64,000 nt of DNA from an uncultured Pelagibacteraceae bacterium. Its GTDB lineage: Bacteria > Pseudomonadota > Alphaproteobacteria > Pelagibacterales > Pelagibacteraceae. Under the pieces are notes generated by a model. That model worked only from the letters and a program-made list of their open reading frames with translations. It made no database searches and was not told the DNA's origin. The position numbers were made by a program, and so were the translations under genes. Positions within the stretch are counted from its first letter, which is position 1; every line of letters starts with the position of its first letter. The DNA is taken from positions 97,426-161,425 of the forward strand of contig CACHVT010000001.1 in the NCBI GenBank assembly GCA_902583345.1, given 5' to 3'. Shown in pieces: positions 5,807-9,382 of this stretch.

Positions 5807-6496
5807 TTACTTGCTTAGCAAGTTTATAATTTTTTTTATTCCTGTTTTTTTTAAACTAAGCTTTGATAACATTAAACAGGCTTGCGATTTCAGAATTTCA
5901 CCATCTTTTAGCACTCTTAAATTATTTGCTTTTAATGTTGCTCCTGTGCTAGTTATATCTGAGATTGCTTCTGCTGTGCCTGTAAATGGAGCAACTTCTG
6001 TACTTCCTAAACTTTTAACTAGTTGAAATTGTGTTACTCCTTTTGAATATAAAAATTGCCTAGTTAAATTTGGATATTTTGTTGCAATTCTTAAAAGTTT
6101 TTTCTTTTTCTTTTTAAACTCATCAGCCACTTCATCTAAATCCAATAAAGTTTGAACATCTATCCATAAATCTGGAATAGCTAAAACTAAATTTGCATTA
6201 CCAAAATTATATCTTTTATTTATCAAAATTTTATTTTGTGTATTAATTTCGCTTTCTTTAAATAAATCGTATCCTGAAAAACCAATATCAATGTTACCAA
6301 ATGACAATTGTTCAATACATTCTCTCGCATGTAAATAAATGATTTTAACATTGGAGAGTTTTTTAATGTATCCAAACAAATCTCTCTCCCCTCTTTCAGA
6401 GTAAATTTTTAATTTATTTTTTTTAAATATATTAATTGTGTCATGCTTTAATCTTCCCTTTGATGGAAGTCCTATATTAATAATATTTTTAGTCAT
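5807..6496 (-). CDS. hisG: ATP phosphoribosyltransferase, short form
   Basis: GLPSKGRL start, DIGFSGYDL, IATKYPNLTRQF, EVAPFTGTAEAISDITSTGATL; adjacent to hisZ. Confidence 0.92.
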   Translation of the reverse strand: MTKNIINIGLPSKGRLKHDTINIFKKNKLKIYSERGERDLFGYIKKLSNVKIIYLHARECIEQLSFGNIDIGFSGYDLFKESEINTQNKILINKRYNFGNANLVLAIPDLWIDVQTLLDLDEVADEFKKKKKKLLRIATKYPNLTRQFLYSKGVTQFQLVKSLGSTEVAPFTGTAEAISDITSTGATLKANNLRVLKDGEILKSQACLMLSKLSLKKTGIKKIINLLSK

Positions 6497-7544
6497 ATAA
6501 ATTCATGTTTACTGCAGCGCCTACTGCAGAAACTTTTCTAAATCCTAAATTAGTAGTTAATTGATCATATCTTCCACCTGATATAAAAGTTTTAAATTTT
6601 GATTTAATTTTTATATCTATAGAAAAAATCATCGAACTATAAAACTCAACTTCTCTACCATTAGAGGCTGAAAATTCTATTTTTAAATTCTTTTTATTAT
6701 TTTTACTTAAAGGAAAAAAATCTTTTCCAACAATTATATTAATTCTATTTTTTTTAAAAAATGCATTTAAAATTTTTGGAGCTTTTTCTAATGGGCATTT
6801 TATTTTTAAAAATTGTCTTATAATATTTGTAATCTTTTTTCCTGTTGAAGACTTTCTTGGATCATTAACCTTCATATTAAACCGGTCCAAAACTTCTTTG
6901 TAGGTTCTTCCAGAAATAACTTTACTTTGATTTTCTTTTCTCATTTTCTGATATCTTGATTTATCTTCTTCAACAAATATTGGATCTATATCTAAATTTG
7001 TTTCTAATCTTTTTAATAATTCGTTAAAATAATTTTCATTCCAATAATATCTTTTAAGTCTATTTTTCCATCTTCTTGGAATATCTAATTTATCAATTAT
7101 TAAATTAAATAATTCAACATTTCCAATTTTCAAAATTGACTTTTTTGTATCAATATTTTTTAAAATTTTTAAAGAAGTATCTATAATTTCCTTATCGTCT
7201 TTTTGTTTATTTTTTGATCCTAAAATTTCATAACCAATTTGGTTTTTTATTATACTGTCTTTCTTTTTATAAGTTTTTCTGAAAGCTTCACCACTATAAA
7301 AAACTTTTTCTCTATAATTTTTTTTATTTTGTATAAACCTTATTACTGAAGAAATTGTTAGATCGGGTCTCAAGCAAAGCTCCTTGCCATTTAAATCATA
7401 AAATGAAAATAGAAATTTTTTAAAACTCTCACCTGATCTTTGAAGGATATATTTTGTTTCAAGAACCGGATCTAATATAATATTATTAAAACCCTTAGAT
7501 TTAATTGATCTAAGAATTTTTTCAGATAATTTTTTTGATTTCAT
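6489..7544 (-). CDS. hisZ: ATP phosphoribosyltransferase regulatory subunit (HisS paralogue)
   Basis: Class-II aaRS-like (CLRPDLTISSVIRF), SGGRYDQL; between hisS and hisG. Confidence 0.85.
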   Translation of the reverse strand: MKSKKLSEKILRSIKSKGFNNIILDPVLETKYILQRSGESFKKFLFSFYDLNGKELCLRPDLTISSVIRFIQNKKNYREKVFYSGEAFRKTYKKKDSIIKNQIGYEILGSKNKQKDDKEIIDTSLKILKNIDTKKSILKIGNVELFNLIIDKLDIPRRWKNRLKRYYWNENYFNELLKRLETNLDIDPIFVEEDKSRYQKMRKENQSKVISGRTYKEVLDRFNMKVNDPRKSSTGKKITNIIRQFLKIKCPLEKAPKILNAFFKKNRINIIVGKDFFPLSKNNKKNLKIEFSASNGREVEFYSSMIFSIDIKIKSKFKTFISGGRYDQLTTNLGFRKVSAVGAAVNMNLYD

Positions 7545-8856
7545 CAGCTAAATTTTCAATTTTTATAGACGACTCATTCCCAGTTTTAAGATTTCTTAAT
7601 TTTACTTCACTTTTTTTTATTTCATCTTCGCCGTAGAAAATTACAAATGGAGATTCTATTTTATTTGCATATTCCATTTGTTTTTTTAAATTACCTTCAC
7701 CTGGATAAATCTCTGAACTAATATTGGCCTCTCGAAGCTTGTTTAAAATTTCGATATATCCTTTGTTTTTACTTTTATCAAAAACACATATAACCCCGGG
7801 TCTAATAGGTTTTATATTGAAATCTTTTTTTTGCATTAAAGCAAAAACAAGCCTATCAAGACCAATTGATATTCCAGTTGCTGGACATTCAATGTTCCCA
7901 AAGTTGCTTACAAGATTATCATACCTTCCTCCTCCACCTATTGATCCAAATTGGATTATTTGACCTTTCAAATTTTTTACTTCAAAATTTAAATTAACTT
8001 CAAAAATAGGTCCTGTATAATATTCTAGGCCTCTTATAACTGATGGATCAAATTTGTAATTTTTAAATTTATAAGCCTCAAATATTTTTATGATCTCTAA
8101 AATATCATCACTATCTGATGTTTTAATGTTTAAAGCTTTTTCAATTATTTTGATTTGATCACTGTTAAGATTTGCGCCCTTTGTATAATCTCCTGATTTA
8201 TCTTTTCTACCTTCTCCAAGAAGTTTTTTTGCTTCATTCCAGCCAAGTCTATCAATTTTATCAAGAGCACGAAGTATAGTTGATATTTGGTCTTTAGATT
8301 CAATTTTTAATTTTTCAAACAATTTATCTGTAAATCTTCTAGAAGAAATTTTTACAGTATAGTCAGTCTTACTAAGCCCACACCTTTCTAATATTTCAGA
8401 AATTAATACACAAAGTTCAGCATCAGCTTGTAAATTTTTTGTTCCTACATAATCTGCATCGAATTGAAGAAACTCTCTATATCTTCCAGGTCCTGGCTTT
8501 TCATTTCTCCAAACAGTTCCTAATTGATAACGTTTGAAAGGTTTTGGAATTATATTAAAATTTTTTGCAACATATCTTGCTAAAGGTGCTGTTAGATCGT
8601 ATCGAAGAGATAACCATTTATTTTCATCTTTAAATGAAAAAACTCCTTCACCTGGCCTATCTTTATCAGGCAAAAATTTTCCAATACTATCTGTGTACTC
8701 AAAACTTGGAGTTTCGAGATACTGAAAACCATACTTGATCATAACTTCTTTAATATTTGAAATTATAAAATCTCGTATTAATAATTCTTTTTCTTGTCTA
8801 TCCTCAAAACCTGAAGGCAGTTCCTTTGAAGGTTTTAATTTTTTTTCTTTTGTCAT
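7522..8856 (-). CDS. hisS: histidyl-tRNA synthetase
   Basis: RYDLTAPLARYVA, YQLGTVWRNEKPGPGRYREFLQFDADYVG motif 2, GGGGRYDNL. Start placed at MTKEKKLKPSKELPSGFEDR (8856); the longer ORF-track start reads through tRNA-His. Confidence 0.95.
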   Translation of the reverse strand: MTKEKKLKPSKELPSGFEDRQEKELLIRDFIISNIKEVMIKYGFQYLETPSFEYTDSIGKFLPDKDRPGEGVFSFKDENKWLSLRYDLTAPLARYVAKNFNIIPKPFKRYQLGTVWRNEKPGPGRYREFLQFDADYVGTKNLQADAELCVLISEILERCGLSKTDYTVKISSRRFTDKLFEKLKIESKDQISTILRALDKIDRLGWNEAKKLLGEGRKDKSGDYTKGANLNSDQIKIIEKALNIKTSDSDDILEIIKIFEAYKFKNYKFDPSVIRGLEYYTGPIFEVNLNFEVKNLKGQIIQFGSIGGGGRYDNLVSNFGNIECPATGISIGLDRLVFALMQKKDFNIKPIRPGVICVFDKSKNKGYIEILNKLREANISSEIYPGEGNLKKQMEYANKIESPFVIFYGEDEIKKSEVKLRNLKTGNESSIKIENLADEIKKII

Positions 8857-8860
8857 TTTT

Positions 8861-8937
8861 TGGTACACGGGGACAGATTCGAACTGTCGACCTTCGGTTC
8901 CACAAACCGCTGCTCTAACCAACTGAGCTACCCGTGC
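8861..8937 (-). tRNA. tRNA-His (GTG)
   Basis: GCACGGGTAGCTCAGTTGGTTAGAGCAGCGGTTTGTGGAACCGAAGGTCGACAGTTCGAATCTGTCCCCGTGTACCA; 7-bp acceptor stem, loop TTGTGGA, encoded CCA. Confidence 0.95.
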
Positions 8938-9105
8938 TCCTTTTATAGTTTTATACTAATTGTGGTTATTTTTAAATTTATAATATGATTAAATAGCTAG
9001 CATGCAGCCAGCATGAAAATGATGTCTGTGATTGATTGCAAGAAATTTGTTATTCTTAATCATTGCTAAGCTTTTAACGAATTAAAAAACTTATGCAACA
9101 TATAA

Positions 9106-9155
9106 TTGTATAGGGAAGCAACTAAAAATATATTTAGTTAGAATACCCTATACAA
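9106..9155. promoter_or_regulatory. Perfect two-segment inverted repeat (structured RNA or bidirectional terminator candidate) downstream of cspA
   Basis: TTGTATAGGG(9106-9115)...CCCTATACAA(9146-9155) enclosing AACTAAA(9120-9126)...TTTAGTT(9133-9139). Confidence 0.5.
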
Positions 9156-9172
9156 GTTTATATGAATTAGAA

Positions 9173-9382
9173 TTAAGAGGTTTTTTGCAGTTTAACTGCT
9201 GATGGACCTTTTTCTCCGTCTTCAACTTCAAAAGTTAATTCGTCGCCTTCGTTAAGAAATCTTAACCCAGCATCTCTAACTGCTGAAGCATGCACGAACA
9301 CATCTTTTTCTTTATCTTCTCGTTCAATAAAGCCATAACCTTTTTTGCCATTGAACCATTTTACTTTACCTTTTAGACTCAT
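9173..9382 (-). CDS. cspA: cold-shock domain protein
   Basis: [19 protein letters not shown]1 and [12 protein letters not shown]2. Confidence 0.95.

Follow-up and report, generated by a model that had tools for sequence, protein, structure and literature searches.

A conserved histidine-codon leader and hairpin upstream of the tRNA-His/hisS junction in Pelagibacteraceae

In Bacillus, hisS (the gene for histidyl-tRNA synthetase, HisRS) is usually controlled by a T-box riboswitch, while for E. coli thrS it is the synthetase itself, ThrRS, that blocks initiation at a tRNA-like operator. Arrangements in which a tRNA and an mRNA share a transcript are also known, e.g., the E. coli co-transcript thrU-tyrU-glyT-thrT-tufB, and in mitochondrial tRNA punctuation the start of an mRNA abuts a tRNA. 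SAR11 genomes are thought to hold few regulators. To our knowledge, and our search was not exhaustive, attenuation of a tRNA gene through the codons that its tRNA reads has not been described.

The gammaproteobacterial his operon, including that of E. coli, carries an attenuator (hisL) whose leader mechanism senses charged tRNA-His (PMC9413887), and in bacilli His-leader peptides have been predicted before hisS*/hisZ (hisS-family genes) (PMC2965389). In SAR11, tRNA-His and HisRS have been found to codiverge, with a tRNA-His that lacks G-1:C73 (PMC3937112); the text of that paper makes no mention of tRNA-His/hisS gene adjacency, and hisS, histidine and leader peptides are likewise not mentioned in the text of the structured-RNA survey of ‘Cand. 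P. ubique’ (PMC2704228). Here we analyse a stretch of 64,000 nucleotides (henceforth the window) which belongs to the Pelagibacteraceae (SAR11), its relatives carrying Pelagibacteraceae names, and in which tRNA-His, hisS and two histidine genes lie behind a His-codon leader.

The histidine-codon leader and its hairpin

The features of this unit in the window lie on the minus strand. A tRNA-His (GTG) was identified by ARAGORN at 8861–8937 (67.1 bits with the Rfam tRNA model on 8937–8864), with an encoded CCA, A73, a G1:U72 pair, no G-1, and a 3′ end reading ...CCGTGTACCA. It is the sole tRNA-His found among the 22 tRNAs of genome G000 and the 32 tRNAs of the complete relative G015. A 4-nt spacer, AAAA (8857–8860), separates its CCA from the ATG (8856–8854) of hisS (7522–8856; 444 aa; TIGR00442 at 367 bits, above cut-off; PF13393). 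Two genes follow hisS in order, each overlapping the one before it: a hisZ-like gene for the regulatory subunit of ATP phosphoribosyltransferase (6489–7544; best match PRK12295.1-6 at 285.8 bits, below the cut-off of 384; synteny hisS-hisZ-hisG) and hisG for ATP phosphoribosyltransferase (5807–6496; TIGR00070 above cut-off). The tRNA is thus directly upstream of hisS on one strand, with no terminator in the 4-nt gap between them. A first-pass annotation had already described the tRNA-His, the AAAA and the hisS ATG at 8856, the absence of a Shine-Dalgarno (SD) sequence in the gap, and hisZ and hisG downstream on the same strand; ARAGORN, the open reading frame and TIGR00442 confirmed every coordinate of this geometry, we also saw no SD there, and the profile matches agree with the two downstream genes (hisZ-like below cut-off).

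What that annotation overlooked is a His-codon leader upstream of the tRNA. Within the 235-nt gap from the cold-shock gene to tRNA-His, an ORF at 8989–9063 encodes a peptide of 24 aa with 4 His (MIKNNKFLAINHRHHFHAGCMLAI*). A small ORF that ends 42–89 nt before tRNA-His and has 2–6 His codons among its last 20 codons was found in all 94 of 94 family loci; counting 8 further loci with a divergent tRNA type, the leader is present in 102/102 family loci. His codons are enriched in one frame only: per 20 codons, their mean number was 3.59 in frame vs. 0.76 and 0.84 in the other frames, and 3 or more His codons occurred in frame in 89/94 loci vs. 0 and 1 loci out of frame. For comparison, the His share of six ordinary proteins of the window was 0.85%. 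Within a single sequence the number of His is unusual to a modest degree only (3.4% of shuffles reach the 4 His of the window, and 21% reach the count of locus L013), and the case for the leader therefore rests on its conservation.

The His codons are under selection, whereas the remainder of the peptide is free to change. Specifically, they are kept despite changes of the third base (20 CAT and 17 CAC at one site, CAC/CAT exchange being common), their order differs by subgroup (HRHHFHAG, HSHRVHAR, KHHFAHAR, HTHHHTHA), and the peptide shows no conservation in its N-terminal part. Judged by these patterns, the conserved property of the leader is the reading of His codons. In the leaders of a divergent subgroup (L124, L127, L135, L139 and L140), Arg-Gly-Thr-rich stretches (e.g., RGTNRGVHSHFHAG) stand ahead of the His codons.

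A comparable His leader was detected in the sister family about 86–100 nt before hisS in 11/11 loci, with no tRNA in between (e.g., MIVFTHHHIHI*, MIKLLHHHYHI*), while none was evident upstream of hisS in 26 other Alphaproteobacteria. The sampled loci thus indicate that the His leader of hisS is common to the whole order sampled, and that only in Pelagibacteraceae does tRNA-His stand between this leader and the gene. The hisS leader of the sister family (L107–L117) is built more elaborately: an HHHxHI*-like peptide is followed right after its stop codon by a strong hairpin and then by a conserved ACCCC(U), for which an AAGGC ahead of the leader start is a possible pairing partner.

Immediately after the last His codon of the window's leader lies a hairpin (8996–9012; GCTGGC-TGCAT-GCTAGC). 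A full stem of 6–7 bp whose first base directly follows the last His codon was found in 89/93 loci, compared with 0–2 loci at the other tested offsets, except for offset −18 (25 loci), where one subgroup has a further hairpin around its His codons. The arms covary: pair 6 is CG in 42 loci and GC in 47, pair 5 is GC, GU or AU, pair 4 is GU or AU, and rarer lineages have stems of other sequence (ATAGCC/GGCTAT or GCAAGC/GCTTGC). Consensus folding of subgroups recovered the same stem and gave no conserved terminator/antiterminator alternative. We considered and rejected the 5′ half of the tRNA as the antiterminator partner of the hairpin, as no conserved pairing was seen by eye, and also long-range pairing of AUGAUU at the leader start with AAUCAU after the hairpin, which is strong in some loci but beats 95% of shuffles in only 43/94. 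The 3′ flank of the hairpin is AU-rich and holds only 2–5 U in 8 nt in nearly all loci, so the hairpin would be weak as an intrinsic terminator, and intrinsic termination is possible.

Probable leader-peptide control of tRNA-His, hisS, hisZ and hisG

We think it rather probable, going by the anatomy and conservation of the locus, that an attenuator-type leader-peptide control senses the charging of tRNA-His and governs tRNA-His, hisS, hisZ and hisG together. The unit in Pelagibacteraceae would consist of a promoter (P1), the His-codon leader peptide, the hairpin, tRNA-His, hisS, hisZ and hisG, presumably co-transcribed from P1. When charged tRNA-His is scarce, be it through too little histidine, too little HisRS or too little tRNA-His, a ribosome would stall at the His codons of the leader. 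Known ribosome footprints suggest that a ribosome halted at the final His codon would sit over the 5′ arm of the hairpin; when His-tRNA is lacking, the hairpin would thus stay open and RNA polymerase would run on into tRNA-His, hisS, hisZ and hisG. With ample His-tRNA the leader would be finished, the hairpin would form, and downstream expression would drop, whether the hairpin is read out by termination or at another step. The hisS mRNA would then probably be freed from, or translated beside, the tRNA that lies 3–7 nt upstream. Through a single sensor such a unit would set the tRNA, the synthetase and the first step of histidine synthesis, and correct all three shortages; the gene content (i.e., tRNA-His, HisRS, HisZ and HisG) fits a sensor of charging.

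If this is true, a His-codon leader before tRNA-His and hisS would form a regulatory loop that works without a protein and suits a minimal genome. The link that the first-pass annotation had drawn between charging and the synthesis of HisRS and the histidine enzymes is likely to hold for hisS, hisZ and hisG, most probably by way of the His-codon leader upstream of the tRNA; the route it had proposed, namely stripping of the hisS leader by tRNA maturation, is not supported as stated, as tight gaps without an SD are general in these genomes (see below).

The promoter-like elements bear on how much of this expression would pass through the leader. Just before the leader start codon, a promoter-like element recognised by consensus only (P1; 9072–9098) combines TTGCAT with a TTAAAA/GTTAAA-like box after about 14–15 nt, and in most of 29 non-redundant loci CTTGCA/TTGAAA ... 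TGTTA boxes stand at a fixed distance before the leader ATG. A TATAAA box lies between hairpin and tRNA, 12 nt before tRNA-His (8950–8955), and may be a second promoter (P2). It is conserved across lineages at 12–20 nt before tRNA-His, which is the position of the −10 boxes of the other tRNA genes of these genomes; no clear −35 was seen upstream of the box. Should P2 act as a promoter, the leader would have no hold on tRNA-His and on part of hisS expression, and this is the largest uncertainty of the model. A second weak point comes from the leader stop codon, which lies just beyond the hairpin. A ribosome finishing the leader therefore passes through the hairpin, which would need to form after ribosome release or before ribosome arrival.

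Conservation of the junction and alternative readings

The tight spacing of tRNA-His and hisS is itself conserved. A tRNA-His lies 3–5 nt ahead of an ATG in all 81 closest loci (80 hisS loci and the window), and the gap is 3–7 nt in about 100 out of 104 Pelagibacteraceae loci (a count in which a few genomes were possibly entered twice); the spacer is A-rich without a fixed sequence. This includes other genera of the family and those members of the window’s genus whose HisRS is divergent (about 37–49% identity), with the exception of L126, L131, L132 (about 30 nt) and L133. Loss of the gap in relatives was the outcome that the first-pass annotation had named as counting against its proposal, and the gap is kept. 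The pair of tRNA-His and hisS is also retained in loci whose tRNA body belongs to a different sequence type, one that ARAGORN misses. In one genus (L124, L125, L127–L130 and L132–L140) we observed several unlike tRNA-His bodies together with divergent HisRS types, both the pair and the leader being kept, and in L132 a tRNA-His of the window’s type is paired with a divergent HisRS.

Outside the family the junction was not found. In the sister family, tRNA-Phe and tRNA-His either stand about 1.4 kb ahead of hisS, separated from it by a convergent gene, or lie at other places; pattern matches in that family (tRNA-His, 4–5 nt, ATG) were rejected as hisS junctions, since the next gene is convergent and transporter-like, and hisS is reached only after about 1.4 kb. 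Among the loci of other Alphaproteobacteria, 0/26 have a tRNA-His directly before hisS (L163 has one about 1.5 kb upstream).

We also examined where hisS starts. Its frame stays open through tRNA-His up to a TTG at 8922, and the ATG at 8856 is the sole start codon in the first 25 codons past the tRNA; relatives use the same start. The TTG inside the tRNA was rejected as the start because some relatives (e.g., L125 and L128) have no in-frame start codon before the hisS ATG. Automatic gene callers could nonetheless annotate 7522–8922 in the window, i.e., a hisS with a false extension of 22 residues.

One way to read the junction is that 3′ maturation of tRNA-His leaves a nearly leaderless hisS mRNA, so that the extent of processing or charging sets HisRS synthesis. 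We regard this as possible and on the whole doubtful. In its favour, the CCA-AAAA-ATG geometry is kept at 3–7 nt, leaving no space for a separate hisS promoter outside the tRNA. In the predicted fold of the precursor, the acceptor and T arms of the tRNA are kept and the hisS start region is free; the predicted cut product begins with 22 unpaired nt, i.e., an A-rich, unstructured start region. RNase E/G was found in 7/7 genomes tested. Caulobacter has many leaderless mRNAs and translates them well (PMC4117421), and a 4-nt hisS leader would therefore be usable. Profile searches of the tested genomes returned only sub-cut-off matches for RNase Z and RNase D-like matches that were all below cut-off, and no RNase PH (TIGR01966) above cut-off in G000, G005, G013 and G015 (the window’s genus; G000 incomplete); RNase PH is present in other genera of the order that were tested. 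Given the absence of RNase PH above cut-off and the sub-threshold RNase Z, tRNA 3′ maturation may be unusual here.

The difficulty for this reading is that nothing in the geometry is peculiar to hisS. In the window, the median same-strand gap between coding sequences is 1.5 nt at a coding density of 94%, and SD-like 4-mers stand at 7/57 gene starts (2 in the control interval), so tiny gaps and SD-less starts are the genome norm, and we rejected the missing SD as a special sign of hisS. A survey of tRNA-gene junctions in G000 and two complete family genomes revealed several unrelated tRNA/CDS junctions of 1–7 nt. For example, exactly 3 nt separate tRNA-Gln(TTG) from the downstream ATG of the gene for the CCA-adding enzyme/poly(A) polymerase (cca) in 29/30 genomes of the genus, and 3–7 nt do so in most other members of the family; the tRNA-Gln/cca spacer (L096:1500–2847, G000 C17; L167–L196) varies in sequence, usually ending in T, at a constant length of 3. 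Similarly, tRNA-Pro(TGG) precedes an NDUFS4-like complex I gene (PF04800) by 3–9 nt in most Pelagibacteraceae loci (L092:1212–1575, G000 C9; L276–L301), tRNA-Leu(CAA) precedes an acyl-CoA synthetase-like gene (named by sequence reading) by 7 or 1 nt, and tRNA-Gly(GCC) precedes a pterin-dehydratase-like gene by 5–12 nt (tRNA-Leu and tRNA-Gly sites L208:1560, L235:1357 and L221:1409). The survey also showed that SAR11 keeps tRNA-Tyr/tRNA-Gly ahead of a tuf-like gene. A special tie between tight junctions and tRNA-acting enzymes (hisS and cca) was rejected, given that NDUFS4, acyl-CoA synthetase and other genes have them too. Start codons abutted by a tRNA are a general feature of these streamlined genomes, and the 4-nt spacing of tRNA-His and hisS is unremarkable in this one. 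Because tRNA-Gln/cca and tRNA-Pro/NDUFS4 are packed alike, leader stripping would not be special to hisS; the argument holds for all tRNA-abutted genes or for none, which speaks against a feedback device specific to hisS. Processing at the 3′ end of tRNA-His to give a hisS mRNA with a 4-nt leader is plausible, and it may well be the way in which the end of that mRNA is made without being the regulatory step.

The same density would also suit an explanation by packing only, in which streamlining pushed tRNA-His against hisS, the tRNA has its own promoter P2, and the junction has no regulatory meaning. The several unrelated junctions of 1–7 nt and the conserved TATAAA ahead of the tRNA agree with this, but it leaves unexplained the conserved His-codon leader with its covarying hairpin, as well as the persistence of the tRNA-His/hisS pair when the tRNA body and HisRS differ, and we consider it unlikely. 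Autoregulation by HisRS, by analogy to thrS, is more improbable still: excess enzyme would bind the tRNA-His part of the precursor and block initiation at the ATG 4 nt away. The conserved geometry does put a true cognate tRNA in the operator position; against this, free tRNA-His would compete in trans, and the leader peptide already supplies a sensor. Finally, we give very little credence to two further readings of the His-rich ORF, namely that it encodes some ordinary small protein or that it arose by chance where a transcription factor uses a palindrome in the DNA. The palindrome-like stem arms and a shuffle frequency of 3.4% for the window alone have to be set against the 89/94 loci in which His is in excess in frame (compared with none or one locus in the other frames), the lack of conservation at the N-terminus and a hairpin register fixed to the last His codon.

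Comparison with known systems

Leader-peptide control of the kind we favour has its closest counterpart in the hisL attenuator, which shares with the SAR11 locus a short leader ORF in which His codons are clustered and, behind it, an RNA hairpin, both placed ahead of histidine genes. The SAR11 locus differs in having a single hairpin locked to the last His codon, a weak U-tract and no conserved antiterminator, and in that the controlled unit includes the tRNA-His gene itself and hisS. Rfam searches of the region 8850–9200 at E up to 10 gave no matching family for the leader region, no match to RF00514 (His_leader) and no T-box riboswitch among the matches. By analogy, we take the SAR11 element to be one that works like a His attenuator and is not a member of RF00514. 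The bacilli leaders are similar in placing His codons upstream of hisS-family genes; they belong to another phylum, with no similarity claimed with Proteobacteria and no tRNA gene reported in the unit (PMC2965389). The tRNA-His of the window resembles the described SAR11 tRNA-His in lacking G-1:C73 (PMC3937112).

With regard to the junction, thrU-tyrU-glyT-thrT-tufB likewise has a translation gene that is directly preceded by a tRNA gene of the same strand; in SAR11 the two are 3–7 nt apart, compared with tens of nt, and the adjacent gene encodes the enzyme cognate to this tRNA. What appears to be new, as far as we could see, is the placement of the sole tRNA-His gene in the unit, between the leader and the synthetase. 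We tentatively suggest, with less confidence than we have in leader-peptide control as such, that the sole tRNA-His gene may itself be subject to attenuation through the codons its tRNA reads, that it may form one unit with the genes for its synthetase and for the first enzyme of histidine biosynthesis, and that excision of the tRNA may release the synthetase mRNA. If this holds, a single charging sensor would set all three determinants of charged tRNA-His in bacteria that are among the most abundant in the ocean. As in mitochondrial punctuation, the mRNA start abuts the tRNA and excision would give a nearly leaderless mRNA; the SAR11 case differs in being bacterial, in concerning some genes only, and in that processing is putative. 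With tRNA genes abutting start codons, SAR11 thus offers a testable bacterial parallel to mitochondrial tRNA punctuation.
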